Part shown: one piece after another, positions 4,202 through 32,780 of the stretch | Position numbering within the stretch: the first letter of the stretch is position 1 | Layout of the letters: the number at the start of each line of letters is the position of its first letter | Origin: Spiribacter sp. 2438 | GTDB lineage: Bacteria > Pseudomonadota > Gammaproteobacteria > Nitrococcales > Nitrococcaceae | NCBI RefSeq assembly: GCF_009676705.1 | Contig: NZ_CP046046.1 | Span: 1,488,001 to 1,552,000 of the forward strand | Reading direction: 5' to 3' | DNA length: 64,000 bases | The notes under the pieces: generated by a model | The model's input: only the letters and a program-made list of their open reading frames with translations | The model's database searches: none | What the model was told of the DNA's origin: nothing | Made by a program: the position numbers and the translations under genes

Positions 4202-5203
4202 ATGACTGCAGCGCCATGGCAGCGCGAACTTCAGGCCGCCATCCGGGATCCTGGCGAGTTGCTGACCCGACTTGACCTGGATCCGGCCCTTGAGGCGCCC
4301 GCCCGGGAGGCTGCCCGGCTGTTTCCACTGAGGGTGCCGGTGGCGTATCTGGACCGAATCCGCCCCGGCGATCCATCGGACCCCCTGCTGCGCCAGGTGC
4401 TGCCCATTGGCCTGGAAAGCACCCATAGCGATGGCTACACCGCGGATCCCGTGGGGGACGGATTGAGCCTTCACCACGGCGGCGTGATCCACAAATACCA
4501 TGGCCGCGCCCTGCTGGTGGCCACCGGCACCTGCGCGATCAACTGCCGTTACTGCTTCCGCCGGCATTTCCCCTACGCCGAGGCCAATGCCAGCGCCGCG
4601 GAGTGGCAACAGGCCGTGAACTACCTGTCGGCCGATCCCGGCATTCAGGAGGTCATCCTGAGCGGCGGCGACCCGCTCTCCCTCAATGATCGCCGGCTGC
4701 AGGGGCTCAGTGGCCAGCTGGATGCCATTCCCCACCTGCGTCGACTGCGCATCCACAGTCGGTTGCCGGTGGTGTTGCCAAGCCGGGTGGATGACGATTT
4801 GCTGGGATGGCTGCAGAACCAGCGGCTGACGCCGGTGCTGGTCATTCACGCCAACCACCCCAATGAGATCGATGAAGCCGTCGCCCGGGCCATGCAGGCG
4901 CTATCCCGTTGTGGCGTCCGGCTTTATAACCAGACGGTGCTCCTCAGGGGCGTCAACGACGACGCCAGCGTCCTGAAGGCCCTGAGCGAGCGACTGTTCG
5001 AAATCAACGTCCAGCCCTATTATCTGCACCTGCTGGATCGGGTGCAGGGAGCGGCGCATTTCGACCTGCCGGTGGATCGCGCCTGCGCGCTCATGCGGGA
5101 GTTGGCTGCCTCGTTGCCGGGTTATCTCCTGCCGACGCTGGTCCGCGAGGTCGCGGGTGCACCGTGGAAGGTGCCGATCCCCTGGGCCGGGCCGGCTGAC
5201 TGA
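4202..5203 (+). CDS. epmB: EF-P-specific lysine 2,3-aminomutase
   Basis: EpmB (YjeK) is a radical-SAM, PLP-dependent enzyme that converts (S)-alpha-lysine to (R)-beta-lysine, the substrate of EpmA. The 333-residue protein carries the cluster motif [15 protein letters not shown] around residues 112-126 and SGGDPLS near residue 159. It is shorter than clostridial lysine aminomutases, as expected for YjeK. It is divergent from efp, so the whole beta-lysylation pathway is in one 2.6-kb block. No gene resembling the hydroxylase EpmC is adjacent. Confidence 0.94.
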
Positions 5204-5232
5204 CGGGGCCCGGCCTGGCGGACGCCCGGTGG

Positions 5233-6117
5233 TCAGCGATTTCTCAGGGCGGCAATCCGCTCCTCGATGGGCGGGTGCGACATGAACCAGCGCTTGAAGC
5301 CACCACGGGCGATGCGGCCGGAGATCCCGAAGGCCTCCATCTGGTCCGGCAAGTCTTCCGCCGGCGGCGAGCCCGCCAGACGCGTGAGCGCCGCAATCAT
5401 CTTGTCACGGCCGGCCAGGTCCGCCGCACCGGCATCCGCCCGGAATTCACGCTGCCGGGAGAACCACATCACGATCACCGAGGCCAGCACCGCGAGGACA
5501 ATCTCGGCGACGATGGTCACGATCCAGAAACCGGGGCCGTGACCCCGCTCGTTCTTGAACACCACCCGGTCCACGAAGTGACCAATGACCCGGGCGAAGA
5601 AAATCACAAAGGTATTCACCACCCCCTGAATCAGGGTGAGCGTCACCATGTCGCCGTTCTGGATATGACACACCTCGTGGGCCAGCACCGCCTCGGCCTC
5701 ATCCCGGGTCATGGTTCGCAGCAGACCGGTGCTCACGGCGACCAGCCCGTTGTTGCGGCTCATTCCGGTGGCAAATGCGTTCACCTGGGGCGAGTCATAC
5801 ACCCCCACCTCTGGCATGCCGATGCCCGCCTGACGCGCCTGCCGGCGGACGGTGTCAATCAGCCACTGCTCACCCTCGTGGCTGGGCTGCTCAATGATTT
5901 TCACGCCCATGGACCGCTTCGCCATCCACTTGGAAATGGCGAGGGAGAGGAAGCTGCCGCCGAATCCGAACACCGCGGCGAAAATCAGCAGTGCCTGATA
6001 GTTGAGAGCGCCGCCGTCTTCCTCCAGCAAACGATCAACGCCCAGAAGACGCAGGACCGTTCCCAGCACAATGATGATGGCCAGGTTGGTCCCAAGGAAA
6101 AGCATGACCCGCTTCAT
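5233..6117 (-). CDS. htpX: Membrane zinc metalloprotease HtpX
   Basis: HtpX is an inner-membrane M48 metalloprotease that degrades misfolded membrane proteins. The 294-residue protein has two N-terminal membrane segments (about residues 5-22 and 38-58), the zinc motif HEVCH near residue 146 with a downstream glutamate in [10 protein letters not shown], and two further hydrophobic segments after the active site. It starts 4 bases after the parC stop on the same strand, so it may be read with parE-parC. In E. coli htpX is under the Cpx envelope-stress response; no such site was identified here. Confidence 0.94.
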
Positions 6118-6121
6118 CAGA

Positions 6122-8371
6122 TTAACCCTCAGTCAGAGCCAGTAACTCATCGACACGCTGGAATCCCCGGGGCAGTGCGCGGCCGCGCCGTCCCCGCTCT
6201 CCTTCATAGCCGCTCAGATCGTCTTTTTTCAAGGTCAAGTGGCGCTTGCCGGCCTGCACCACCAGCGGCTGACCGGCCTCGAGCACGCACAGGCCCACCA
6301 CTCGCTCGCTGCCGTCGCGCCGCCGGGCGGATGGAATATCAATCAGTTTGTTGCCCTTGCCTCGAGCCAGTTCAGGCAGCTGGGCCAGCGGAAACACCAG
6401 CAATCGCCCGGCACTGGTGGCCACCGCCACCTGCTCCGCCCCGGCGGGAACGGATACCGGCGGCAGGCTCCGGCTGTCACTGCCCAGGTTAAGCACCGCC
6501 TTGCCGGCTTTCTGCCGACTATGGAGATTGCCAAGGCGGGTCAGAAACCCGTAACCGCTGTCGCTGGCCAGCAGCAGGGCCTTGTCCGCGTCACCACAGA
6601 GCACATGAACAAACCGGGCTCCGTCCGGGGGTTGCAGGCGTCCCGTAAGCGGCTCGCCCTGCCCCCGGGCCGAGGGCAGCGTGTGGGCCGGCAGGCTGTA
6701 GCTGCGGCCCCGGTCGTCAAGAAACACCGCCAGCTGGTTGCTTCGACCCGGCGCCGCGTCACTGAATCCGTCACCGGAGCGGTAGGAGAGCCGTTCCGGG
6801 TCGACATCGTGTCCCTTGGCCGCCCGTGCCCACCCCTTGCGGGACAGCACCACGGTCACCGGCTCGCTGGGGACCAGATCGCTCTCGCTCAGGGCTCTGG
6901 AACTGTCCCGGGTGACCAGTGGCGAACGGCGATCATCGCCGTATTCTTCGGCGTCGGCCTTGAGCTCGGTCTGCATCAGACGCGTCATGCGCTGACGCGA
7001 CCCCAGGGTCCGGCTTAACTGATCTCTTTCCGTGCCCAGCTCATCCTGTTCGCCCCGGATTTTCATTTCCTCGAGCCGGGCCAGATGACGCAGACGCAAC
7101 TCCAGGATGGCCTCGGCCTGGGTCTCGGTGAGGCCGAAACGCTCCATGAGGGCAGCCCGCGGCTCCTCGGCTTCCCGAATGATGGCAATGACCTCATCAA
7201 TGTTGAGGTAGGCGATCAGCAGCCCTTCAAGGACGTGCAGTCGGGCCTCGACCTTGCCGAGCCTCCACTCCAGGCGCCGCCGCAATGTCTCGCGACGATA
7301 CTCCAGCCACTCCGACAGCAGTTCGCGCAGGTTGCGCACCCGCGGGCGTCCGTCCAGGCCGATCACGTTGAGATTGACCCGGTAGGTCTTCTCGAGGTCG
7401 GTGGTGGCGAACAGATGCGACATGACCTCATCCGCATCGACCCGACTGGAGCGCAGCGTAATCACCAGCCGGGTGGGATTTTCGTGATCCGACTCGTCCC
7501 GCAGGTCTTCCACCATGGGCAGCTTCTTGCTCTGCATCTGAGCCGCCACCTGCTCTAGAACCCGGCTACCGGAGACCTGAAACGGCAGCGCGGTGACGAT
7601 CACATCACGACCGTCACGCTCCCAGCAGGCCCGCAGACGCAACCCGCCGTGGCCGGTTTCGTAAATACGCCGGATGTCCTCGGGCGGGGTGATGACCTCC
7701 GCATGGGTGGGGAAATCCGGCCCCTGAACATGCTCGCAAAGCGCTGCCACATCGGCCTCGGGCTGCTCCAGCAGTCGAATACAGGCAGACACCACTTCGC
7801 GCAGATTGTGGGGCGGAATGTCGGTCGCCATGCCCACGGCAATCCCGGTGCCACCGTTCAACAGGACATTCGGTACCCGGGCCGGCAGGGTGACGGGCTC
7901 ATCCAGGCTGCCATCGAAATTCGGCTGCCATTCCACGGTGCCCTGCCCCAGCTCCTGCAGCAGCAGTCGGCTATACGGGGCCAGTCGGGCCTCGGTATAC
8001 CGCATGGCCGCAAATGACTTGGGATCGTCGGCGGATCCCCAGTTGCCCTGGCCGTCCACCAGGGGATAACGGTAGGAAAACGGTTGTGCCATGAGCACCA
8101 TGGCCTCGTAGCAGGCCGAGTCCCCATGGGGGTGATATTTGCCCAGCACGTCGCCCACGGTCCGAGCGGATTTTTTGTGCTTGGACGCCGCGGACAGACC
8201 CAGCTCGGACATGGCGTAGACAATGCGCCGTTGCACGGGCTTGAGGCCATCGCCGACGTGGGGCAACGCCCGGTCGAGAATGACGTACATCGAGTAGTCG
8301 AGATAGGCCTTCTCGGTAAACTCGTGCAGCGGGCGCTGTTCAAAGTCCCGATGGGCGCTCTGCTCACTCAT
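6122..8371 (-). CDS. parC: DNA topoisomerase IV subunit A
   Basis: ParC is the DNA-cleaving subunit of topoisomerase IV, which decatenates daughter chromosomes. The 749-residue protein shows the breakage-reunion domain with the catalytic tyrosine in [10 protein letters not shown] and the quinolone-determining segment [12 protein letters not shown], which keeps the wild-type Ser and Glu positions. A beta-pinwheel C-terminal domain begins near residue 490. The length fits ParC rather than GyrA. It lies 25 bases downstream of parE, so the two subunits form an operon. Confidence 0.95.
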
Positions 8372-8396
8372 GAGGGGGAGGTACTCCTGTCATCAA

Positions 8397-10289
8397 TCAA
8401 ACCAGAACCTCGGCGAGATCACCCTTGCGCTCCAGCCAGGCACGGCGCTGGGAAGCCGCACGCTTGCCCAGCAGCATCGCCATGAGCGCCTCGGTCTCGG
8501 CCGGGGCGTCAACGGTCAACTGAACCAGTCGCCGGGTGTCCGGCGCCATGGTGGTCTCCCGCAGCTGAAGGGGGTTCATCTCGCCCAGTCCCTTGAAACG
8601 GGTAGTGGCCACTTTGCCCTTGCGGTTCTCGGCGGCGATGCGATCGAGAATGCCCTGGCGCTCCTGCTCATCCAGCGCATACCAGGTCTCTTTGCCGACA
8701 TCGATGCGATACAGCGGCGGCATGGCCATGAACACGTGTCCCGCCGCCACCAGTGCCGGAAAATGTTTCAGGAAAAGCGCACAGAGCAATGTCGCGATGT
8801 GGGCACCGTCGGGATCGGCGTCTGCCAGCACGCAAACCTTGCCGTAGCGGAGTCCGGACAGGTCCGGCGAACCGGGCTCAATGCCCAGGGCGACGGCGAT
8901 GTCGTGGACCTCCTGGGAGGCCATCACCTCGGAGGGATCCACCTCCCAGGTGTTGAGGATTTTTCCCCGCAGCGGCATCACCGCCTGGAACTCCCGGTCC
9001 CGGGCCTGCTTGGCCGATCCCCCGGCGGAGTCTCCCTCCACCAGAAACAATTCGCCCCGGGCCGAATCCTGACTGCTGCAGTCCGCCAACTTGCCCGGTA
9101 GCGCCGGCCCCTGGGTCACCCGCTTTCGAGTGACCTTGCGGGCTGCCCGCAGACGACGCTGGGCGCTGGCAATCACCATTTCCACCAGTCGCTCTGCCTC
9201 GGTGGTGTGCTCGTTGAGCCAGAGGCTGAAGGCGTCCTTTACAACCCCGGAGACGAAGGTCGCGCATTCCCGGGACGACAGTCGCTCCTTGGTCTGGCCG
9301 GAGAACTGCGGCTCCTCGACCTTGATGGACAGCACGTAGGCCACCCGTTCCCAAACGTCCTCCGGAGCGATGCGCATGCCCCGGGGCATCAGACTGCGGA
9401 ACTCGCAGAACTCCCGCAGCGCCTCCGTCAATCCGGTCCGCAGGCCATTGACATGGGTCCCGCCCTGCAGGGTCGGTATCAGATTGACGTAGCTTTCCTG
9501 GACGGTCTCACCGCCATCCGGTAGCCAGGTCACGGCCCATTCCACCGCCTCGTGGAGCGCAGAAAAGTCGCCGGTAAAAACCGGATCCGGCAGGCGTTCC
9601 ACCTCGGCCAGTGCCGTGGACAGGTAATCCGCCAGGCCGTCTTCGTAGTACCAGATGGTCTCTTCGCCGGTTGACTCCTCCAGGAGCCGGACCGTGAGCC
9701 CGGGACAGAGTACGGCCTTGGCCCGCAACACGTGCCGCAGACGCGGCAGGGAAAACCTGGCGGAGTCAAAATAGCTGGCATCGGGCCAGAAATGCAGCGT
9801 GGTCCCGGTGTTGCGTTTGCCGACTTCCGCTACGGGCTCCAGATCCCGAACTTTTTCACCATTGGCGAAGGTCATGTGCCATTCGCGGCCATCCCGGCGA
9901 ATGGCCACCACCAGCCGGGTGGACAGCGCATTGACCACCGATACCCCGACGCCGTGAAGGCCGCCGGAGAACTGGTAACTCTCCCGGGAAAACTTGCCAC
10001 CGGCATGGAGCCGACCGAGGATGACCTCAACGCCGGGAATCCCCTCTTCGGGATGGATGTCGACGGGCATCCCGCGGCCATCATCACTGACCGACAACGA
10101 CCCATCCCGGTGGAGGGTGACGTCGATCCGCCGGCAATGTCCGGCCATGGCCTCGTCGACACTGTTGTCGATGACCTCCTGCGCCAGATGGTTGGGGCGA
10201 GTGGTATCCGTGTACATGCCGGGCCGGCGGCGGACCGGATCCAGTCCGGTGAGGACCTCAATGGCCGCGGAATCGTAGCGATCACTCAT
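8397..10289 (-). CDS. parE: DNA topoisomerase IV subunit B
   Basis: ParE is the ATPase subunit of topoisomerase IV. The 630-residue protein begins MSDRYDSAAIEVL; an in-frame upstream extension to 10526 is rejected because it runs through the divergent xseB gene. The GHKL ATPase domain (EVIDNSVDEA, SDDGRGMPVD, GGLHGVGVSVVNAL) is followed by the transducer and a TOPRIM domain with EGDSAGG near residue 415 and DADPDGAHI near residue 495. Length and sequence fit ParE rather than GyrB, since no DNA-binding insert is present. It is divergent from xseB. Confidence 0.95.
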   Translation of the reverse strand: MSDRYDSAAIEVLTGLDPVRRRPGMYTDTTRPNHLAQEVIDNSVDEAMAGHCRRIDVTLHRDGSLSVSDDGRGMPVDIHPEEGIPGVEVILGRLHAGGKFSRESYQFSGGLHGVGVSVVNALSTRLVVAIRRDGREWHMTFANGEKVRDLEPVAEVGKRNTGTTLHFWPDASYFDSARFSLPRLRHVLRAKAVLCPGLTVRLLEESTGEETIWYYEDGLADYLSTALAEVERLPDPVFTGDFSALHEAVEWAVTWLPDGGETVQESYVNLIPTLQGGTHVNGLRTGLTEALREFCEFRSLMPRGMRIAPEDVWERVAYVLSIKVEEPQFSGQTKERLSSRECATFVSGVVKDAFSLWLNEHTTEAERLVEMVIASAQRRLRAARKVTRKRVTQGPALPGKLADCSSQDSARGELFLVEGDSAGGSAKQARDREFQAVMPLRGKILNTWEVDPSEVMASQEVHDIAVALGIEPGSPDLSGLRYGKVCVLADADPDGAHIATLLCALFLKHFPALVAAGHVFMAMPPLYRIDVGKETWYALDEQERQGILDRIAAENRKGKVATTRFKGLGEMNPLQLRETTMAPDTRRLVQLTVDAPAETEALMAMLLGKRAASQRRAWLERKGDLAEVLV

Positions 10290-22502: not shown

Positions 22503-23750
22503 CTAGTCGTACTTCTGCTTGAAGCGGCGCACCAGGTAGGTGGACACCAGGTTGAGCATCAACGTGACGATAAAGAGCACCAGGCCCAGCGCGAAGGCCG
22601 CCAGCGTCATGGGGCTGTCGAACGCCTGGTCGCCGGTGAGGGAATAAACGATGTTCACCGTGACCGTGGTCATGTCTTCCAGCGGATTCCAGGTGAGATT
22701 GGGCCGCACCCCAGCGGCCATGACCACGATCATGGTCTCGCCCAGGGCCCGGGACACCCCCAGCAGAAAGGCCGAAATGATACCCGGGAGTGCCGCCGGC
22801 AGAATCACCTGCTTGATGGTCTCGGAGTGGGTGGTCCCGAGGGCATAGGCTCCCTCTCGAAGACTCTGGGGAATGCTGTTGATGACGTCGTCCGAGAGCG
22901 AGGATATGAACGGAATGATCATGATCCCCATGACAATGCCCGGGGACAGGATGTTGCTGTAGGAGGCATCCAGGCCGAAAAAATTGGCGGCATTGACCAC
23001 CAGCGGCGTTACCGTCACCGCGGCGAAGAAACCGTAAACCACCGTGGGGATGCCCGCGAGAATTTCCAGAACCGGCTTGGCAAAGCTGCGCTGCCGGCGG
23101 CTGGCATATTCGGACATGAAAATCGCGGAGAGCAGGCCAATGGGCAGTGCCGTGGCCATGGCGATGGCGGTCACCATGAAGGTACCGGCGAACAGCGGCA
23201 CGGAGCCAAAGAAGGATCCGCCCTCCTCGACCTCGTCGCCACGCCCGGCCGCTTCAAGGAAGGTGTCGCCGGGCGACCAGACCGTTCCGGTGACGAACTC
23301 CCAGACGCTGACGGCGCGGAAAAAGCGCATCGCTTCGAACAGCACGGACAGCACGATGGAGATGGTGGTCACGATGGAAATCAGCGCCGCGCTTAGCAGC
23401 AGCAGCCTGATCACCGTGTCCAGCGCGTTGCGCGCCCGGACTTCCGGGCGAACGGCCCGCAGGCCGTAGGCCAGACCTAGCAGGGCCACCGCCACCGACA
23501 CCACCAGCACCAGCTCCCGGGCCGGGGCGATGAGGCCGGTAACGCTGAGAAGGGCCGCCAGCAACGCCACGCCCAGTGCCGGCAGGCCCATCCAGACCAC
23601 GGAATACCAGCCGTACTGCTGGGGCCGGGAATGCATGCGGACGCCGGATGCGATGGTGTTCACCGCCTTGCCGCGCCCGAGGCGATAGGCCAGCAGGCCA
23701 AGTGGCGCCAGCACCGCCATCAGCAGCAGAGTCGTCGTCCCGATGCCCAA
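22503..23750 (-). CDS. pstC: Phosphate ABC transporter permease PstC
   Basis: This is the partner permease of PstA. The 415-residue protein has several N-terminal hydrophobic segments (to about residue 100) before the usual PstC permease core. Conserved segments include FMSEYASRRQRS near residue 203 and the loop LREGAYALGTTHSETIKQVI near residue 296. The start is TTG at 23750 with a weak GGGA upstream; the open frame continues about 45 codons further without an ATG, GTG or TTG. A 327-base leader region with Pho boxes precedes it. It is longer than E. coli PstC. Confidence 0.9.
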   Translation of the reverse strand: MGIGTTTLLLMAVLAPLGLLAYRLGRGKAVNTIASGVRMHSRPQQYGWYSVVWMGLPALGVALLAALLSVTGLIAPARELVLVVSVAVALLGLAYGLRAVRPEVRARNALDTVIRLLLLSAALISIVTTISIVLSVLFEAMRFFRAVSVWEFVTGTVWSPGDTFLEAAGRGDEVEEGGSFFGSVPLFAGTFMVTAIAMATALPIGLLSAIFMSEYASRRQRSFAKPVLEILAGIPTVVYGFFAAVTVTPLVVNAANFFGLDASYSNILSPGIVMGIMIIPFISSLSDDVINSIPQSLREGAYALGTTHSETIKQVILPAALPGIISAFLLGVSRALGETMIVVMAAGVRPNLTWNPLEDMTTVTVNIVYSLTGDQAFDSPMTLAAFALGLVLFIVTLMLNLVSTYLVRRFKQKYD

Positions 23751-24077
23751 TTGGCTATCCCGTATCGCCGAGGAAAATACACGGGTAGGCCACGCCCAAT
23801 CCGGACACGACCACCACGGCGCCGAATACTCACTCAGACGATCGGGTCTTGCAACTCATGATTGCCTCAAGTCCCTCATGAGACCCGGGCAATGCCGGCA
23901 ATGCTCCGCCGTTTTCAGGGAAAGAGTCGCGGGTCAGGACTCCTTTTTGTCAGTGCCCCGGGGCTCGCCGGCGTTGACGATGGCCTCCATCTCGCTCAAG
24001 TCGATGTGACGGCGATGTGACAATTTCGTGACAGTCGAAAAGTGCCGGCGGGTCGCCCGCCGAATCGGTGGCCGGTC
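23751..24077 (-). other. Gene-free region upstream of pstC
   Basis: No supportable gene lies in these 327 bases. They hold the triple Pho-box repeat at 24006-24034 and then about 255 bases of apparent leader before the pstC start. Very short open frames (about 9-20 codons) occur in it on the minus strand, but none has family features. No clear -10 hexamer was found downstream of the Pho boxes. Confidence 0.6.
24006..24034 (-). promoter_or_regulatory. Triple Pho-box repeat upstream of pstC
   Basis: Read on the minus strand, three heptamers CTGTCAC, TTGTCAC and CCGTCAC recur every 11 bases with 4-base spacers. This is the period and sequence of the PhoB-binding direct repeat, giving two overlapping Pho boxes. 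The site lies about 255 bases upstream of the pstC start and just past the stop codon of the FKBP gene, so it should drive pstC-pstA-pstB-phoU. Confidence 0.8.
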
Positions 24078-24626
24078 TCAGAGACCCGGCACTGGCTGTT
24101 CCCAGGCCTCGCGCTCTACCGGCTGCTGGGGCTCAACGATGGCTCGCAGCTGCAGTTCGAATACCAGGGTCTCCTCGGGGCCAATCTGGCCGCCCCCCGA
24201 GGTTCCATAAGCCAGGTCCGGCGGGATGACCAACCGCACCTCACTACCCACGGGAAGGGCGTTCAGGACCTGCTGCCATCCCGGGATGGTGCGATCCACG
24301 GGCACCGTCGCCGGCTCAGGGTCGCGCCGGGAGCTGTCGAACTCCCGTCCGTCCACGTGCCAGCCCCGGTAATGGACCTGCACCCAGCTGGACTCCCCGG
24401 GAATCTCCCCCGCCCCCTCACGGAGCATTTCCACCTGCAGGCCATTGTCGAAGGTCACGACACCGGACCGTTGACCATTGCTGGCGCGGTAAGCGGATCC
24501 CGCCTCGGCATTGATACGGGCCAGCAGGATCCGGTCCTCGATTTGCTCGGGAGTCAGGCCACAGGATCGGGCACCGACAAAGATCAGCACCAGGGCCAGC
24601 AAACTGAAAATAATGAGTCGATGCAT
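24078..24626 (-). CDS. FKBP-type peptidyl-prolyl cis-trans isomerase, exported or membrane-anchored
   Basis: The 182-residue protein begins with a hydrophobic segment (residues 3-18) ending GARSC, which could be a signal or anchor; the cysteine context is a poor lipobox. An FKBP domain (residues about 55-165) has VQVHYRGWHVDGREFDSS, PGWQQVLNALPVGSEVRLVIP and LAYGTSGGGQIGPEETLVFELQL, keeping most of the active-site pattern. It would act in periplasmic protein folding. The start at 24626 is preferred over 24659. It follows the Sel1 gene by 11 bases and lies between pstS and pstC, so it is probably phosphate-regulated. Its client is unknown. Confidence 0.85.
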   Translation of the reverse strand: MHRLIIFSLLALVLIFVGARSCGLTPEQIEDRILLARINAEAGSAYRASNGQRSGVVTFDNGLQVEMLREGAGEIPGESSWVQVHYRGWHVDGREFDSSRRDPEPATVPVDRTIPGWQQVLNALPVGSEVRLVIPPDLAYGTSGGGQIGPEETLVFELQLRAIVEPQQPVEREAWEQPVPGL

Positions 24627-24637
24627 GAAGGCGTGAT

Positions 24638-25474
24638 TCAGGGACGACCGAGGGCCCATTCCACGGCGAGACGCCGCGCGGCCGCCCGATCCTCGTCATC
24701 CAGGTTTTCATCCAGCCGCCGCCGCAGTTGTTCACCGAGCGGATCCCCTTCCGCTGCGGCGAGATTGGCCCACTTGGCGGCCAGAACCGGATCAGCGTCC
24801 ACGCCCTGTCCCTGCTGATACATGAACGCCAGCCAGCCCTGCATCTGCCCATGGCCATGGTCGGCGCCAATGCGGGCATAGCGGGCCGCCTCCTGATCAT
24901 CCACCGGATGATCACCGATGCCTTCCATGTAGAGCCGCGTCAGGAAATAGGCCGCCATGATCTGGCCCTCATCGAGGGCTTCTTCCAGCAGGCCTTTCGC
25001 CTGGAAAACCCGATGGGGCGCGCGGCCGCCGAGGGCATCGGAGATCAGCACCGAGGCCCAGGCGGTCTTGGCCGGGGTGTGCTGGGCATCAATGGCGTGA
25101 CCGAACCAGTGCTCGGCCCGTTCGCGATCCCGGTCCACTCCGTCCCCGGCCAGATACATCCAGGCCACCTTGAGCGCAAATGCATCGGCGCCCGCCATCG
25201 CCGCGCGGCTGTACCAGTGTGCTGCCCGCTCGCCATCCCGGGGTACACCATGGCCCTGCTCGTGGATCCAGCCCAGGTGAGTCATGGCGGTGGCGGATCC
25301 GGCTTCCGCGGCCCGCCGGAAAGCCTGGCGCGCCCCCGTCCAGTCCGGTGGATCCTGTGAGAGCAGCGCGTGCGCCCTGGTCTCCGCCGCCTCGGGTGGG
25401 CCGTCCATCGCCGGGGCCGCGGCAGCGGTGCCGACCAGCAACAACAGGCAGACGGTGAGAGAGCGCAACCGCAT
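24638..25474 (-). CDS. Secreted Sel1-repeat (TPR-like) protein inside the pst locus
   Basis: The 278-residue protein has a clear signal peptide (MRLRSLTVCLLLLVGTAAAA, cleavage near residue 20) and about five Sel1-like repeats, seen as GSATAMTHLGWIHEQGHGV, GADAFALKVAWMYLAGDGV, GQIMAAYFLTRLYMEGIG and GHGQMQGWLAFMYQQGQGV. Such repeats form helical solenoids that bind partner proteins. Start 25474 has GGAGG upstream; an in-frame start at 25528 is rejected. A Pho box lies about 75 bases upstream. The FKBP gene follows after 11 bases. The partner and biological role are unknown. Confidence 0.82.
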   Translation of the reverse strand: MRLRSLTVCLLLLVGTAAAAPAMDGPPEAAETRAHALLSQDPPDWTGARQAFRRAAEAGSATAMTHLGWIHEQGHGVPRDGERAAHWYSRAAMAGADAFALKVAWMYLAGDGVDRDRERAEHWFGHAIDAQHTPAKTAWASVLISDALGGRAPHRVFQAKGLLEEALDEGQIMAAYFLTRLYMEGIGDHPVDDQEAARYARIGADHGHGQMQGWLAFMYQQGQGVDADPVLAAKWANLAAAEGDPLGEQLRRRLDENLDDEDRAAARRLAVEWALGRP

Positions 25475-25549
25475 GGTGCCCACCTCCAGTGGCATTCGTG
25501 ACAGAGCGGGACGACCCAGGACCATCACGCATCACTACACACCATGCGT

Positions 25550-25567
25550 GTTACAGATTTTTGACAG
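25550..25567 (-). promoter_or_regulatory. Pho box upstream of the Sel1-FKBP pair
   Basis: The minus strand reads CTGTCAAAAATCTGTAAC, two heptamers 11 bases apart, matching the PhoB-binding consensus with one clear deviation in the second half. It begins 9 bases after the pstS stop codon and lies about 75 bases upstream of the Sel1-repeat start, so it points to separate phosphate control of that gene pair. Confidence 0.82.
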
Positions 25568-25575
25568 CGGGCCGG

Positions 25576-26589
25576 TTACTCCAGGTCAGAGCGGCTCACG
25601 GTTACCCGGTCTTCCACCCGCTGACGCCACTCCATTCGCTGCTCTGCCGGCATGGGGATCAGACCTTCGTCCACCAGCAGACCCCCCTCACCGATCATCA
25701 GCTCATCCATGAATAGATCCAGAAACTCATCCAGCCCAGTGACCGCTGCCTCATGGGCCGCCTTGATGTAGAGCCACATGGAGCGGGACACCGGATACTC
25801 GCCGCTGGAAATGCTCTCGACGGTGGGCACGGCGCCATCAATGGTCGCACCGGCAATGGTGTCGCGGTTTTCCTCGAGAAAGCTGAAGCCGAAGATGCCC
25901 ACCGCTTCCCGGTTCTGCCGAATCCGCTGAACGATCAGGTTGTCGTTTTCTCCGGAGTCGACATAGGGGCCATCAGCCCGGATTCGGCTGTAGGGCCGCG
26001 GATAACCCAGGCTTTCACTGACGGCTTCCATGACCAGCTCCTCGAACGCATCGCGGGTGCCGGAGGTGGAAGGCGGACCCAGCACCTCGATACGGCGCTC
26101 CGGCAGCGCATCGTCAATCTGATTCCAATGGGTATAGGGGTTATCAACCAGCTCGCCTCCCCGGGGCACCTGCGCGGCCACGGCCAGGGTCAGTTGTTCC
26201 CGGGTCAGGGCGAGGGGTTCGTTGTCGATGCTTTGAGCCACCACAATGCCATCGGCGCCAATCTGCGCTTCGACAATATCGTTGACGCCATTGTCCTGGC
26301 AGCGATCAAACTCACTGGTTTTCATGCGGCGGGAGGCGTTGTTGATGTCCGGTGTGTTCAGCCCGACGCCGTCGCAGAACAGGCGCATGCCACCGCCGGA
26401 CCCGGTGGCTTCGACCACCGGCGTGCGAAGGCCGGTGATGGCACCAAACTCCTCCGCCACGTAACTGGTAAACGGAAAGACGGTGCTTGATCCGACAATC
26501 CGTAGCTGCTCTCGCTCGGACGCCGCAGCCGTCGAAGCCAGGGCCAGTCCGGTCACCATCGCCACAGTGATCATCTTCCAATGGGACAT
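25576..26589 (-). CDS. pstS: Periplasmic phosphate-binding protein
   Basis: PstS captures phosphate and delivers it to PstC/PstA. The 337-residue protein has a signal peptide (MSHWKMITVAMVTGLALA, cleavage near ASTAAA-SE) and begins its mature part LRIVGSSTVFPF, the conserved phosphate-loop serine/threonine region. ATGSGGGMRLFCDG near residue 62 and PSTSGTRDAFEEL near residue 173 complete the binding site. Start 26589 has AGGAG upstream; the in-frame extension to 26718 overlaps phoR and is rejected. It follows phoR by 83 bases. I could not find a Pho box directly in front of it. Confidence 0.94.
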   Translation of the reverse strand: MSHWKMITVAMVTGLALASTAAASEREQLRIVGSSTVFPFTSYVAEEFGAITGLRTPVVEATGSGGGMRLFCDGVGLNTPDINNASRRMKTSEFDRCQDNGVNDIVEAQIGADGIVVAQSIDNEPLALTREQLTLAVAAQVPRGGELVDNPYTHWNQIDDALPERRIEVLGPPSTSGTRDAFEELVMEAVSESLGYPRPYSRIRADGPYVDSGENDNLIVQRIRQNREAVGIFGFSFLEENRDTIAGATIDGAVPTVESISSGEYPVSRSMWLYIKAAHEAAVTGLDEFLDLFMDELMIGEGGLLVDEGLIPMPAEQRMEWRQRVEDRVTVSRSDLE

Positions 26590-26672
26590 TAACGACTCCT
26601 CGTGGTGCTGTCTGAAAACACCGCACAGGATAGCGTGAAAATCGGGCAATGACTTGACCGGAAAACCAGCGG

Positions 26673-28007
26673 TCAGGACACCCGAGTTGCGATGGTGCGG
26701 CCGTCTGCGCCGGCACAACCTCGAACCGGCTCCGGGAAACGGCAGCAGAACCGGCTACCCTCCCCCGGGCTGCTTTCGATATCGAGAGTCGCGCCGTGGC
26801 GGGAGAGGGCATGCTTGACGATGGCGAGGCCCAGGCCGGTGCCTGCGGCGCGCCCCGAGCCCCCCGGATCCACCCGGTAGAATCGCTCCGTAAGTCTTGG
26901 CAGGTGCTGCGGGGGAATGCCCCGACCGGTGTCAGTGACCGCCAGGCAGGCCTCGCTGCCCTCCTGATGCCAGTCGACGGTGATTCGCCCGCCAGGCTCG
27001 GTGTATTTGACAGCGTTGGTGAGCAAATTGGACAAGGCGCTGCGGATTTCATCGGCATCGCCACGAACGGTGAGGTCCGGGTCCACCGCCGTGCTGAGCT
27101 CATGCTGATCACTGCTGAAGCGCCTGGCCTCCTCAACGGCCGACTCAACAATCGACGGCATGTCCACGGCCATGGCTTCCACCGCCGGAGCCTCTGTCTC
27201 CAGGCGGGACAGCAGCAGCAGATCATCCACCAGCAAGCTCATGCGCTCGATCTGCTCTTCCATCAGCGTCAGGGATCGGCCGAGTGGCTTGTCGTCACCC
27301 ACCTCGTGATCGGCGATCTGCTCGGTCATGCCCCGCAGCACGGTCAGGGGTGTCCGGAATTCGTGGGAAATATTGGCCACGAAGTCCTGGCGCATGGTTT
27401 CCAGCCGGTGCACCTGGGTCACGTCACGGGCGAGCAGCAGTTGCTGGTCAAGACCGTAGGGCACCACGCGGATTTCCAGCATGCGCCGGGCGTTGCGCGG
27501 CGCCGGAATTTTCACCGCCTCGTTCCAGTCGGCCCGATTCAGGTAACCGGTGAACTCCGGGTGCCGGATCAGGTTGGCAATTCGCACCCCCTGATCCCGG
27601 GGCCAGTCGAGGGCCAGATAGTGGGTGGCCACCCGGTTCCACCACTGGATGGCACCGTTGCCATCCAGGACCACGGTGCCGTCGGGCATGGCGTTGGCGC
27701 TCTCCCGGAAGCGTTGCAACAGGCCGCTGAGACGGTGACGGCGGTGTCGCTGACGCTGCTGACGGCGCACCATGATGTCGAACACCTCGCCCCACAGGCC
27801 GGTGGCCTTCGGCGGGCTGGTTCGCCGACTACGCCGCAGCCACGATTCCAGGCGGTAGAGTTGATAGCCGTGGAATCCCAGTGCCCCCAGAGCCGCCATC
27901 AGCAGCACCAGCAGCGGCTGGCCGACAAGGAGACCCATCAGGACGACCACGGTGGTGCCAGCCACGAAGCGAGCGATGGCCGCCGGCCATGGGCTGCTGC
28001 TCAGCAT
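26673..28007 (-). CDS. phoR: Phosphate regulon sensor histidine kinase PhoR
   Basis: PhoR phosphorylates PhoB under phosphate limitation. The 444-residue protein has an N-terminal hydrophobic hairpin (residues about 10-45), a basic linker, a PAS domain (about 100-205, with ESANAMPDGTVVLDGNGAI), a HisKA domain with the phosphoacceptor histidine in FVANISHEFRTPL near residue 217, and an HATPase domain with N box LLTNAVKYTEPGG, G1 DTGRGIPP and G2 GTGLGLAIVKHAL. It starts 12 bases after the stop of the repaired phoB frame. The domain order matches E. coli PhoR. Confidence 0.93.
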   Translation of the reverse strand: MLSSSPWPAAIARFVAGTTVVVLMGLLVGQPLLVLLMAALGALGFHGYQLYRLESWLRRSRRTSPPKATGLWGEVFDIMVRRQQRQRHRRHRLSGLLQRFRESANAMPDGTVVLDGNGAIQWWNRVATHYLALDWPRDQGVRIANLIRHPEFTGYLNRADWNEAVKIPAPRNARRMLEIRVVPYGLDQQLLLARDVTQVHRLETMRQDFVANISHEFRTPLTVLRGMTEQIADHEVGDDKPLGRSLTLMEEQIERMSLLVDDLLLLSRLETEAPAVEAMAVDMPSIVESAVEEARRFSSDQHELSTAVDPDLTVRGDADEIRSALSNLLTNAVKYTEPGGRITVDWHQEGSEACLAVTDTGRGIPPQHLPRLTERFYRVDPGGSGRAAGTGLGLAIVKHALSRHGATLDIESSPGEGSRFCCRFPEPVRGCAGADGRTIATRVS

Positions 28008-28751: not shown

Positions 28752-28769
28752 GTTACAGCTCCATGACAG
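28752..28769 (-). promoter_or_regulatory. Pho box upstream of phoB
   Basis: The minus strand reads CTGTCATGGAGCTGTAAC: two heptamers 11 bases apart, close to the PhoB consensus. It lies 47 bases upstream of the phoB start, fitting phoB-phoR autoregulation. It is in the 111-base spacer shared with the divergent mrpE gene. Confidence 0.85.
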
Positions 28770-28815
28770 CGCCGGGCGCTGGCGGGGGTGCCCGGAGATT
28801 GGTACATTTCGCCGC

Positions 28816-29295
28816 ATGCGTTATTTCGTCTCCCTGGCTCTTCTGCTGGCGCTTTTATGGCTGGGCCTGTCGGGGGTTTACAAACCTCTGTTGCTCATCC
28901 TTGGCGCCGCGTCCGTGGCACTGGTGGTCTGGCTTACTGAGCGCATGGAGGTGCTGGGGGCGGAACATGACCCGGGGACCCTGTCCTGGCGACTGGGGGC
29001 CTACTGGATCTGGCTCGTCTGGCAAGTGGTGCTTGCCAACATCGCGGTGGCCCGGGCGGTCCTCGATCCCCGCCGCATCCGCCCGCGGATGATTTCGGCC
29101 CCGGCCAATCAGCGTACACGGGTCGGCCAGGTGACCTACGGCAACTCCATCACCCTCACCCCCGGTACCGTCACCACCCGTCTGGACAGTGATTCCCGAC
29201 AGCTCGAAATCCATGCGCTCATCCCGGAGGCGGTGGCGGACATCGAGGGCGGAGAAATGGGGCGTCGGGTGCAGTGGCTGGAGGGCAAGCCATGA
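28816..29295 (+). CDS. mrpE: Mrp-type Na+/H+ antiporter subunit E
   Basis: MrpE (MnhE/PhaE) is a small membrane subunit of the multisubunit cation/proton antiporter. The 159-residue protein has two or three N-terminal hydrophobic segments (residues about 3-40 and 60-80) and the conserved cytoplasmic part TLTPGTVTTRLDSDSRQLEIHAL. It is the first gene of a ten-gene operon. No good ribosome-binding site is seen in front of the ATG, but TACATT lies 7 bases upstream of it, so a leaderless transcript is possible. Its stop overlaps the start of mrpF (ATGA). Confidence 0.92.
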   Translation: MRYFVSLALLLALLWLGLSGVYKPLLLILGAASVALVVWLTERMEVLGAEHDPGTLSWRLGAYWIWLVWQVVLANIAVARAVLDPRRIRPRMISAPANQRTRVGQVTYGNSITLTPGTVTTRLDSDSRQLEIHALIPEAVADIEGGEMGRRVQWLEGKP

Positions 29296-29582
29296 TGGAC
29301 GCGGTGCTGCTGGCCACCATTCTGGCCATTTTCACCACCATGGCGCTGGCGCTCTGGCGGGCGATCGCCGGCCCATCGGTGTACGACACTATTGTCGGGG
29401 TCAACGTGTTCGGCACCAAAACCGTCCTGCTGATTGCGCTGATCACCTATTTCGGCGGCAACGACGATCTGATCGATGTCGCCATCGTCTACGCACTCAT
29501 CAACTTCCTGGCGGTCATCGCGGTGCTCAAACTGGTCCGCCACCGGGATCTGGCGGCGGCACCGGAGAAGGCCGATGACTGA
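29292..29582 (+). CDS. mrpF: Mrp-type Na+/H+ antiporter subunit F
   Basis: The 96-residue protein has three membrane segments and the family core RAIAGPSVYDTIVGVNVFGTK (near residue 22) with DLIDVAIVYALINFLAV. MrpF is required for antiporter complex assembly. The ATG at 29292 overlaps the mrpE stop, and the gene overlaps mrpG by 8 bases, so translation is coupled. Confidence 0.92.
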   Translation: MMDAVLLATILAIFTTMALALWRAIAGPSVYDTIVGVNVFGTKTVLLIALITYFGGNDDLIDVAIVYALINFLAVIAVLKLVRHRDLAAAPEKADD

Positions 29583-29919
29583 GGGAGTCATCGACATCCT
29601 GTCAGCCCTCATGCTGCTGACCGGCAGCGCCTTCGCCGTGATCGGCGGCATCGGGATCATGCGGTTCCCCGATGTTTACACACGGCTGCATGCCGGCGGC
29701 ATCACCGATACGCTGGCGCCGTTGCTGATCGTCGGCGGACTGGTGCTTCAGTCCGGATTCAGTCTGTTGTCCTTCAAGCTCCTGCTCATTCTGCTGTTCC
29801 TGCTATTTACAACGCCCACGGCGTCTCATGCCACGGCCCGGGCAGCCATGGCAGCGGGCTGGCGGCCACTGGGTAAGAACAGTAAAAAGACGGACGGGGA
29901 GGAATCATCGAACACCTAG
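29575..29919 (+). CDS. mrpG: Mrp-type Na+/H+ antiporter subunit G
   Basis: The 114-residue protein has three membrane segments and the MrpG signature GIMRFPDVYTRLHAGGITDT near residue 26. The charged C-terminal tail is hydrophilic. It overlaps mrpF by 8 bases. The following DUF4040 gene starts within about 10 bases, or overlaps it if a non-ATG start is used. Confidence 0.92.
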   Translation: MTEGVIDILSALMLLTGSAFAVIGGIGIMRFPDVYTRLHAGGITDTLAPLLIVGGLVLQSGFSLLSFKLLLILLFLLFTTPTASHATARAAMAAGWRPLGKNSKKTDGEESSNT

Positions 29920-29927
29920 TCGACATT

Positions 29928-30458
29928 GTGCTGCTGCTGCTGTTGATGGTGGTGGGCCTGGGCGTGGTGCTGACCCGGGATCTCCTCAAGGCCACCATGC
30001 TCTTTGCCATCTACTCGCTGACCATCGCGGGGCTGTTTGCGGCACTGGATGCGGGCGATGTGGCGCTGACCGAGGCCGCCGTTGGTGCCGGCATCAGCAC
30101 CATCCTGATCCTCGCCGTGCTGGCACTGGTGCCGCGCCACGAAAAGCGTCGCGGCGGCCATAACCTGGCGGCGCTGTTTACCGTGCTGGTCACCGGGGCG
30201 GCACTTGTCTACGCCTCGCTGGACCTGCCGGAGTTCGGGGCAGCGGACAACCCGGTCCATCAGCATGTGGGTCCGTATTACATCGAGCAGACCTACTCGG
30301 ACATGGGCATTCCGAATCTGGTGGCCGCGGTGCTCGCCGGGTACCGCTCCATTGACACCATGGGCGAAGCGGTGGTGATTCTGACTGCCGGGATCGCGGT
30401 TTATGCCCTGCTCTCGGTGCCGCCGCGCCGCCGTCGAAAGAAGGGACCCCCGGCATGA
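29928..30458 (+). CDS. MrpA C-terminal-type subunit (DUF4040/MbhD-MbhE-like), encoded separately
   Basis: The 176-residue protein corresponds to the C-terminal part of MrpA rather than a complete subunit. It has a MbhD/DUF4040 unit (LLKATMLFAIYSLTIAGLFA, residues about 18-67) and an MbhE-like unit (residues about 80-165, HVGPYYIEQTYSDMGIPNLVAAVLAGYRS). The start is uncertain: GTG at 29928 is conventional, but the frame extends upstream as IIEHLVDIV behind a strong GGGGAGG at 29896-29902, which suggests a rare ATC or ATT start at 29907 or 29925. Its stop overlaps mrpB by 4 bases. Confidence 0.85.
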   Translation: MLLLLLMVVGLGVVLTRDLLKATMLFAIYSLTIAGLFAALDAGDVALTEAAVGAGISTILILAVLALVPRHEKRRGGHNLAALFTVLVTGAALVYASLDLPEFGAADNPVHQHVGPYYIEQTYSDMGIPNLVAAVLAGYRSIDTMGEAVVILTAGIAVYALLSVPPRRRRKKGPPA

Positions 30459-30940
30459 AAGACAACCCGATACTGGTGGTCGTCGCCCGGTTCCTTATCC
30501 CACTGGTGATGCTGTTTGGCCTGTATGTGCAGTTCCATGGCGAGTACTCGCCGGGCGGTGGCTTTCAGGCCGGCGTCATTTTTTCGGCGGGCTGGATTCT
30601 TTTTGTATTCGTCTACGGACTGGAAACCGGTCTGCGCATCATCCCGCCCGGCGTCATCTACACCCTGGCTTCACTGGGCGTGCTGCTCTACTGCTTCATC
30701 GGCCTGCTCGGCGTGATCCTGGGTGGTCGTTTCCTGGATTTCTACCCGCTCCTGGAATCCCCCCACGCTGCCCAGCAGGCGGGCATCATTCTGGTGGAGT
30801 TTGGCGTCGGAGTGACGGTGGCCACAGTGGTCATGCTGTTCTTCCTGATGTTCGCCCGCCGGCGCGGTGAGGAAATTGCCGGCGGCCTGGACCCGGACGC
30901 CGAGGACGAGCCGCAGCCGGACGAGGACGACTGGCGATGA
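30455..30940 (+). CDS. mrpB: Mrp-type Na+/H+ antiporter subunit B
   Basis: The 161-residue protein has four membrane segments and the MnhB signature YVQFHGEYSPGGGFQAGVI near residue 24. The C-terminus is strongly acidic (DPDAEDEPQPDEDDW). It starts at an ATGA overlap with the preceding gene and ends in an ATGA overlap with mrpC. Confidence 0.92.
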   Translation: MKDNPILVVVARFLIPLVMLFGLYVQFHGEYSPGGGFQAGVIFSAGWILFVFVYGLETGLRIIPPGVIYTLASLGVLLYCFIGLLGVILGGRFLDFYPLLESPHAAQQAGIILVEFGVGVTVATVVMLFFLMFARRRGEEIAGGLDPDAEDEPQPDEDDWR

Positions 30941-31296
30941 CGGTGCTCAGCTTCTTCAATTACTGGGCGGTGATTGTGCTGATGATGATCGGCTATTACT
31001 GCATGATCGTGCGCGGCAACATGATAAAGAAAATCATCGGCCTGGGCATTTTCCAGACGTCCGCCTTCATTCTGTTCATCTCCGCGGGCAAGGTGATCGG
31101 GGGGTCGACCCCCATCCTGCGAGAAGGCGTCGACATCCATGCCAACCCGCTGCCTCATGTCATCATCCTCACCGCCATCGTGGTGGGCGTGGCCACCACG
31201 GCAGTGGGACTGGCCTTGACGGTACGCATCCGCGAGGCCTACGGCAGCATCGATGATGACGCCATTGACGCCGTTGAAGAGGGCGACGGCGAATGA
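30937..31296 (+). CDS. mrpC: Mrp-type Na+/H+ antiporter subunit C (NuoK-like)
   Basis: The 119-residue protein has three membrane segments, as in NuoK of complex I, with the family pattern KIIGLGIFQTSAFILFI and NPLPHVIILTAIVVGVATTA. The short acidic tail and the ATGA overlaps on both sides fit its place in the operon. Confidence 0.92.
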   Translation: MTVLSFFNYWAVIVLMMIGYYCMIVRGNMIKKIIGLGIFQTSAFILFISAGKVIGGSTPILREGVDIHANPLPHVIILTAIVVGVATTAVGLALTVRIREAYGSIDDDAIDAVEEGDGE

Positions 31297-32780
31297 CGCT
31301 ACCCGCCACGGACCTGATGCCCTTCATCGTCCTGGTGCCGCTGATCGCCGGGCCGATATGTGCTTTGCTGCCGGGGCGCCAGTGGCCCTGGCTGATCGCC
31401 ACCCTCAGCACCGCCGCCGCGCTGGTGCTATCCGCCATCACGCTGGCGGCAGTCTTCGATGGCAGCACGCTGCGCTATCCCTTTGGCAACTGGATGCCGC
31501 CCATTGGCATCGAATATCGAGTGGATGCCGCCAGCGCCTTCGTGGCCCTGCTGATCACCGGCGTCTCGACGGTGCTTCTGCCGTGGGCCAAGGTGCTGGT
31601 GGATGACGAGGTGCCGGAGCGTCAGAGCGCTTTTTATGCCCTGTTCCTGATCGCCATGGCCGGTCTGCTGGGGATCACCCTAAGCGGCGATATCTTCAAC
31701 GTCTTCGTGTTCCTGGAAATTTCTTCCCTCGCCACTTACGCCCTGATCGCCCACGGCCGGGATCGACGCGCACTGCTGGCCGCGTTCCGCTACCTCATCA
31801 TGGGGACGGTGGGCGCGACCTTCCTGTTGATTGGCATTGCCTTCATCTACATTCTGACCGGCTCACTGAACATGGCGGATCTCGGTGATCGCCTGGTGAA
31901 CCATCAGGACTCCCGGGCCCTGCAGGTGGCCCTCGGCTTTATCGTGGTGGGATTTTCCATCAAGCTGGCGCTGTTTCCCCTGCACCACTGGCTGCCCAAT
32001 GCCTACACCTACGCGCCGTCCCTGATCAGCGCGTTCCTGGCGGCCACCGCCACCAAGGTGGCGCTCTACGTGATGCTTCGGTTCGTCTTCGATGTCTTCG
32101 GCGCCGACTACAGCTTCCTGGCCCTGCCCCTGAGTGCCGGCTTCATGGCCCTCGCCATCGGCGGCATGCTGATGGGCTCCTGGCTGGCCATCCTGCAGAG
32201 CAACCTGAAGCGCATGCTGGCGTACTCGTCGGTGGCCCAGGTGGGATACATGGTGCTCGGCGTCAGCCTGGTGACCCTGACCGGATTGACGGCGTCGTTT
32301 CTGCATCTGTTCAACCACGGGCTGATGAAAGCCACCCTGTTCGCCAGCGTCGGACTGATCATCTGGCGGTGCGGCAGCGTCCAGATTCAGGACCTGCGGG
32401 GTATCGGGCGGCAGATGCCCTGGACGTTGACGGCGTTCGCCCTGGGCGGCGTCAGCCTGGTTGGCATTCCGCCCACCGCCGGCTTCATCAGCAAGTTCTA
32501 CCTCATCAGTGCGGCGGTGGAAGCCGGTCAGGTCTGGCTGGTGGTGCTGATCCTGATCACCTCGCTCATGGCAATCGTCTACATCGCCCGCATTGTGGAA
32601 GTGGCATGGCTCCAGCCCCGGCCTGAGGACGCGCCGACGGTGAAAGAAGCGCCCTGGTCGTTACTGGTGCCGGTGTGGATCATGGTGGCCGCGAATTTCT
32701 GGTTCGGCATTGATACCCGACTGACCGTCGGCGCCTCGACAGTGGCTGCCGAAGCGCTGAGTGGGGGGCTCCTGCCGTGA
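31293..32780 (+). CDS. mrpD: Mrp-type antiporter subunit D (NuoM/N-like proton channel)
   Basis: The 495-residue protein has about 14 membrane segments. It carries the channel residues typical of antiporter-like subunits: a glutamate in FVFLEISSLATYALIAHG near residue 140 and a lysine in SIKLALFPLHHWLPNAY near residue 223, plus the second-half segment HLFNHGLMKATLFAS near residue 337. It is predicted to conduct protons in exchange for sodium or potassium as part of the complex. It is joined by 4-base overlaps to mrpC and to the next subunit. Confidence 0.93.
   Translation: MTLPATDLMPFIVLVPLIAGPICALLPGRQWPWLIATLSTAAALVLSAITLAAVFDGSTLRYPFGNWMPPIGIEYRVDAASAFVALLITGVSTVLLPWAKVLVDDEVPERQSAFYALFLIAMAGLLGITLSGDIFNVFVFLEISSLATYALIAHGRDRRALLAAFRYLIMGTVGATFLLIGIAFIYILTGSLNMADLGDRLVNHQDSRALQVALGFIVVGFSIKLALFPLHHWLPNAYTYAPSLISAFLAATATKVALYVMLRFVFDVFGADYSFLALPLSAGFMALAIGGMLMGSWLAILQSNLKRMLAYSSVAQVGYMVLGVSLVTLTGLTASFLHLFNHGLMKATLFASVGLIIWRCGSVQIQDLRGIGRQMPWTLTAFALGGVSLVGIPPTAGFISKFYLISAAVEAGQVWLVVLILITSLMAIVYIARIVEVAWLQPRPEDAPTVKEAPWSLLVPVWIMVAANFWFGIDTRLTVGASTVAAEALSGGLLP

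Follow-up and report, generated by a model that had tools for sequence, protein, structure and literature searches.

The stretch of Spiribacter sp. 2438 DNA analysed here (64,000 nucleotides, referred to as the window) carries on its minus strand the series phoB, phoR, pstS, a Sel1-repeat gene, an FKBP gene, pstC, pstA, pstB and phoU (Table 1). A sequence-only reading of this DNA had placed the Sel1 and FKBP genes between pstS and pstC on the same strand, and both the gene calls and the Pfam matches bear this out. The range 24638–25567 given in that reading takes in the Sel1 gene and its Pho box, but the FKBP gene lies outside it. The two genes are closely spaced, with the FKBP start codon only 11 bases past the Sel1 stop codon. 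Translation of Sel1 likely begins at the ATG at 25474, which is preceded by GGAGG, rather than at the GTG at 25528. The core genes and their order, phoB-phoR-pstS-pstC-pstA-pstB-phoU, are those of the canonical phoBR and pstSCAB-phoU arrangement and are the same in the window and its congeners; the window differs by two additional genes and two Pho boxes between pstS and pstC. Adjoining phoB, the plus strand (28763–32780) holds genes that resemble multisubunit Na+/H+ antiporter subunits of the mrp/mnh type, as judged from the translations alone.

Table 1. Features of the pho–pst locus in the window (positions are those of the window)
Feature	Coordinates	Strand	Details
Pho box 5′ of phoB	28752..28769	-	CTGTCATGGAGCTGTAAC; graded-consensus scan
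phoR	26673..28007	-	PF11808 PhoR E=7e-23; without periplasmic sensor domain
pstS (upstream neighbour of Sel1)	25576..26589	-	PF12849 E=4e-40
Pho box of Sel1-FKBP	25550..25567	-	CTGTCAAAAATCTGTAAC; 2 mismatches of 18; p=0.002 vs shuffled upstream sequence
-10-like hexamer TGTAGT	25534..25539	-	exactly 10 bases past Pho box 25550-25567
Sel1-repeat protein gene	24638..25474	-	278 aa, Sec-type signal peptide, coordinates with stop; PF08238 E=8e-26
FKBP-type PPIase gene	24078..24626	-	182 aa; ATG 24626, stop 24078; PF00254 E=6e-20
Second Pho box, between FKBP and pstC	24017..24034	-	CTGTCACGAAATTGTCAC; 3 mismatches; further half site follows
pstC (downstream neighbour of FKBP)	22503..23750	-	TTG start; TIGR02138 290.7 bits vs cut-off 196

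The Pho boxes were located with a consensus that we wrote ourselves from the E. coli Pho box, and all of them are sequence predictions. The box ahead of the pair and the second Pho region before pstC, both named in the sequence-only reading, are the only matches with at most three mismatches in the 64 kb, where 0.11 would be expected by chance; two such matches were reached in 3 of 100 shuffles. A graded consensus ranks the Sel1 box first, the box before pstC second and the phoB box third in the window. The 10-base gap between the Sel1 box and the TGTAGT hexamer matches that of classical Pho promoters. The phoR–pstS gap (26590–26672) shows a Pho box score of 2.8, compared with 10.6–16.4 in congeners and family relatives; because this site is weak, the phoB promoter may now be needed for pstS expression.

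The Sel1 protein belongs to the Sel1-like repeat family, with a PF08238 score of 90 bits against a gathering threshold of 30.7. Its AlphaFold2 model (pLDDT 93.7) is a solenoid of 14 helices, and the nearest folds in the PDB are LpnE, HcpC and c5321 with Z values of 20–23. The LpnE, HcpC and c5321/EsiB solenoids, described in pathogens and in other settings, have the fold in common with it; no common function is implied. Residues ∼138–150 (ASVLIADAxGG) form a highly conserved, family-specific segment that departs from the usual Sel1 repeat. The BamJ, AlgK, MerG and MotX models were also compared, and all fell below their cut-offs.

The partner is an FKBP-type PPIase by its PF00254 score (71.8 bits against 21.1). 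Its model (pLDDT 84.5) consists of an N-terminal helix (residues 2–22) and an FKBP domain, so the protein is predicted to have a single N-terminal membrane anchor and a periplasmic PPIase domain. Cys22 was considered as a lipoprotein site and rejected, since no lipobox is present there and the residue varies among orthologues. The pocket residues Tyr86, Ile114, Trp117, Tyr140 and Phe156, which were aligned to Mip, are invariant among 20 orthologues, and all 20 aligned sequences end in a VPxL tail, which is VPGL in the window. Of FkpA, Mip and FklB, the first two are the nearest in sequence to the FKBP domain, which keeps the aromatic pocket; the dimerizing N-domain is cut to the membrane helix and one more helix, and the VPGL tail is conserved. 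The FKBP_N score of 18.1 is below the cut-off of 22, and a full dimerization domain is lacking. The protein also scores below the NCBIfam cut-offs of the FkpA/FklB models NF008150 (103 against 215) and NF008602 (105.8 against 198). No curated family model fits either the Sel1 protein or the FKBP at its cut-off.

The conservation of the pair was surveyed by scanning named genomes with a Sel1 profile and then analysing the gene neighbourhoods. Beyond the family of the window, the pair proved widespread. Within the Sel1 clade, 20 loci have FKBP directly after Sel1; they come from Thioalkalivibrio, Thiocapsa imhoffii, other Chromatiaceae and Ectothiorhodospiraceae-like genomes, one record labelled Competibacteraceae and other Gammaproteobacteria. 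The sequence-only reading would have fallen had the pair shown no association with pst in related genomes; the association held, since phoBR and/or pst adjoin this conserved gene pair in 18 of the 20 loci. As for the two exceptions, one sequence ends ∼150 bases past FKBP (L131) and the other shows no pho gene (L127). The usual order is phoB-phoR-Sel1-FKBP-pstS-pstC-pstA-pstB-phoU, and the highest identities to the window copies are 67% for Sel1 and 72% for FKBP. Additional genomes also carry it, among them single-contig ones (G440 and G448) with the same arrangement, so the pair is not an artefact of metagenome binning. We regard a conserved Pho-linked cassette as very well founded. The proposal of a two-gene envelope module thus stands as far as the Pho boxes and the company of phoBR/pst are concerned, but only in this genome does the pair lie between pstS and pstC; in the others it precedes pstS, often immediately after phoR. 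A full-text search of the open-access literature found no paper describing the Sel1–FKBP pair, only incidental matches, an absence that is not proof. The protein families themselves are known, but a pair of this kind under Pho control, and its insertion inside pst, seem not to have been described before.

Two variations on the locus were seen in the survey. Thioalkalivibrio-type loci carry a third gene, weakly similar to DUF6544, in the space separating FKBP from pstS (L115, 3486–4427; L116, 9386–10279). This gene is absent from the window, where a search of the 330-base FKBP–pstC gap for its remnant gave no convincing match. One genome of 2.0 Mb retains, between phoR and FKBP-pstS, a Sel1 gene of reduced length (176 aa; L240 of G158, 2053–2583).

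The two genes also occur apart. Order-mates of the window have Sel1 alone and mostly away from pst, except that it lies just past phoU in G026 and ∼2 kb from pstC in G031. In Ectothiorhodospira spp., Sel1 is divergent from phoB with no adjoining FKBP. The same FKBP family is found in Ectothiorhodospira-family genomes by a short-chain dehydrogenase gene, away from pho and with a VPGL-type tail in most cases (L236–L238, L242–L247). Thus, the two genes need not function as an obligatory pair. Many high-quality genomes of a Thioalkalivibrio-like genus (g208) have neither gene, so pst works without the pair, and this patchy presence marks the cassette as accessory. A second Sel1 paralogue clade in Thioalkalivibrio (L140–L147) is unlinked and has no Pho boxes; with neither a Pho box nor pho linkage, it was ruled out as part of the system.

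Pho boxes were then scored over the 300 bases upstream of Sel1 in these genomes against dinucleotide shuffles. Among the pair loci without phoR just upstream, a box is present in nine of 11 at p < 0.05 and in eight of 11 at p < 0.01. The distant Sel1-only loci, most of which are unlinked to pst, carry one in eight of nine cases (p < 0.05). When Sel1 directly follows phoR, the fraction falls to 3/10, as expected for a read-through operon, and it is 1/5 for Ectothiorhodospira Sel1. The controls gave 0/7 for the paralogue clade and 4/36, with low scores, for unrelated Sel1 genes. Many positive loci also show a TA-rich −10 hexamer ∼10 bases past the box. Because the loci are mutually related, the combined p-values should be read with caution. 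Since most of the Sel1-only loci are away from pst, the box is not a mere by-product of linkage, and Pho control of Sel1 is independently supported. These predicted promoters suggest that phosphate starvation turns on the Sel1–FKBP cassette.

In 13 other genomes of the genus, the FKBP of the pair is absent and no full-length Sel1 orthologue was found. The inspected congeners and family members with the same pst type have adjacent pstS and pstC with a short gap, mostly within phoBR-pstSCAB-phoU, and no Pho box was found between these genes in the inspected congeners of that type; the pair is thus an insertion in this species. In a tree of 45 Sel1 proteins, the window copy falls in an 18-row clade (99/97) of pair-type sequences from Thioalkalivibrio, Chromatiaceae and their allies, and not with its order-mates. 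The FKBP of the window likewise falls near Thioalkalivibrio in its own tree, with weaker support. Many of these donor-type loci have a Pho box immediately past FKBP and before pstS, which is the counterpart of the second box in the window. The window repeats their series of elements, Pho box-Sel1-FKBP-Pho box, but before pstC. Both absence from congeners and nesting in a foreign clade are therefore seen, and acquisition of the whole cassette is the most economical explanation; by phylogeny and gene order, the species probably gained it horizontally. The base composition and GC content of the window cassette were uninformative and showed no sign of transfer. In a congener (L090 of G002, 5194–9008), a pstSCAB of foreign type (identities of 40% for pstC, 31% for pstS and 56% for pstB) lies between vertical phoBR and phoU, which indicates that the pst segment is prone to replacement.

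We considered what such a pair might do. ExoR of Rhizobiales is a periplasmic Sel1 protein that restrains the kinase ExoS (PMC4550343), and it offers a precedent for a Sel1 protein that regulates Pho signalling from the periplasm, acting either on PhoR directly or on PstSCAB. The likeness is that of a secreted Sel1-only protein of similar size with a genetic tie to a two-component system (ExoS-ChvI for ExoR), and in many genomes the secreted Sel1 protein is encoded directly 3′ of phoR. However, the score against the ExoR family model NF045484 is only 28.2 bits, far under the cut-off of 450, and the Sel1 gene is an apparent PhoB target, which its Pho boxes place among the outputs of the regulon. 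Many relatives, moreover, signal without Sel1. PhoR itself, in the window and in the donor-type loci, begins with a two-helix hairpin whose loop has a few residues, and so offers no periplasmic sensor domain to bind. Direct or ExoR-like control of PhoR, which the sequence-only reading had allowed for, is thus unlikely, and we consider a signalling module as a whole improbable.

The pair could also have a general role in envelope stress that was recruited to the Pho regulon, helping cells through the changes in the envelope that phosphate starvation brings (lipid replacement, salt or alkali stress); it would then need no special Pst client. Such a role would suit the Sel1-only copies, which carry Pho boxes yet are mostly unlinked to pst, and the related FKBP copies outside pho loci, as well as the many hosts that are named halophiles, alkaliphiles or soda-lake bins. 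That the pair is so strongly and so often linked to phoBR/pst speaks against this explanation, to which we give a minor share of our belief. It could also be that the genes moved along with pst by transfer as neutral passengers and have no role in phosphate physiology. Patchy presence and absence from the 13 congeners would be expected of a passenger, but Pho boxes conserved in independent and unlinked loci would not, nor would the conserved pair order, FKBP pocket and tail; this explanation is already disfavoured and seems very improbable to us. The export, the Pho boxes and the conservation by pst point to an envelope function that is needed while Pst and phosphatases are produced in large amounts, and the combination of an isomerase with a protein-binding solenoid most readily suggests a folding or assembly aid. 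We put this role forward tentatively, as somewhat short of an even chance.

The gene content, conservation, linkage, Pho boxes and predicted folds are computational observations, and the model that follows is inferred from them. During phosphate starvation, PhoB would bind the box at 25550–25567 and drive sel1-fkbp. The second box would re-prime pstCAB-phoU, restoring PhoB control to the genes downstream of the insertion. The Sel1 protein would be exported to the periplasm, where its 14-helix solenoid could bind partner proteins, while the FKBP would be held in the inner membrane, its putatively active prolyl isomerase domain and its conserved C-terminal tail both facing the periplasm. Acting jointly, perhaps in physical contact, the two proteins would most likely aid the folding or assembly of exported phosphate-starvation proteins; candidate clients are PstS/PstC or secreted phosphatases. 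In this full form, a PhoB-controlled Pho box-sel1-fkbp-Pho box envelope cassette that was acquired, inserted between pstS and pstC and serves as a folding or assembly aid, the model seems to us evenly poised between right and wrong. A more far-reaching version is a transferable, self-regulated cassette with a PhoB promoter at each end, encoding a phosphate-specific Sel1–PPIase machine dedicated to assembling the phosphate transporter or Pho exoenzymes in the periplasm; we regard it as speculative and on the doubtful side.

If true, such a cassette can enter the pst operon while the downstream genes remain under PhoB control. The Pst–Pho system is the textbook nutrient-sensing circuit, for which we know of no factor dedicated to folding or assembly. 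A secreted Sel1 protein that has Pho boxes in several gammaproteobacterial families, often together with a membrane-tethered isomerase, would be a concrete and deletable candidate for such an assembly factor. It would also provide a hint of function for Sel1 proteins, many of which have no assigned role, and an example of a regulated cassette inserted inside pst.
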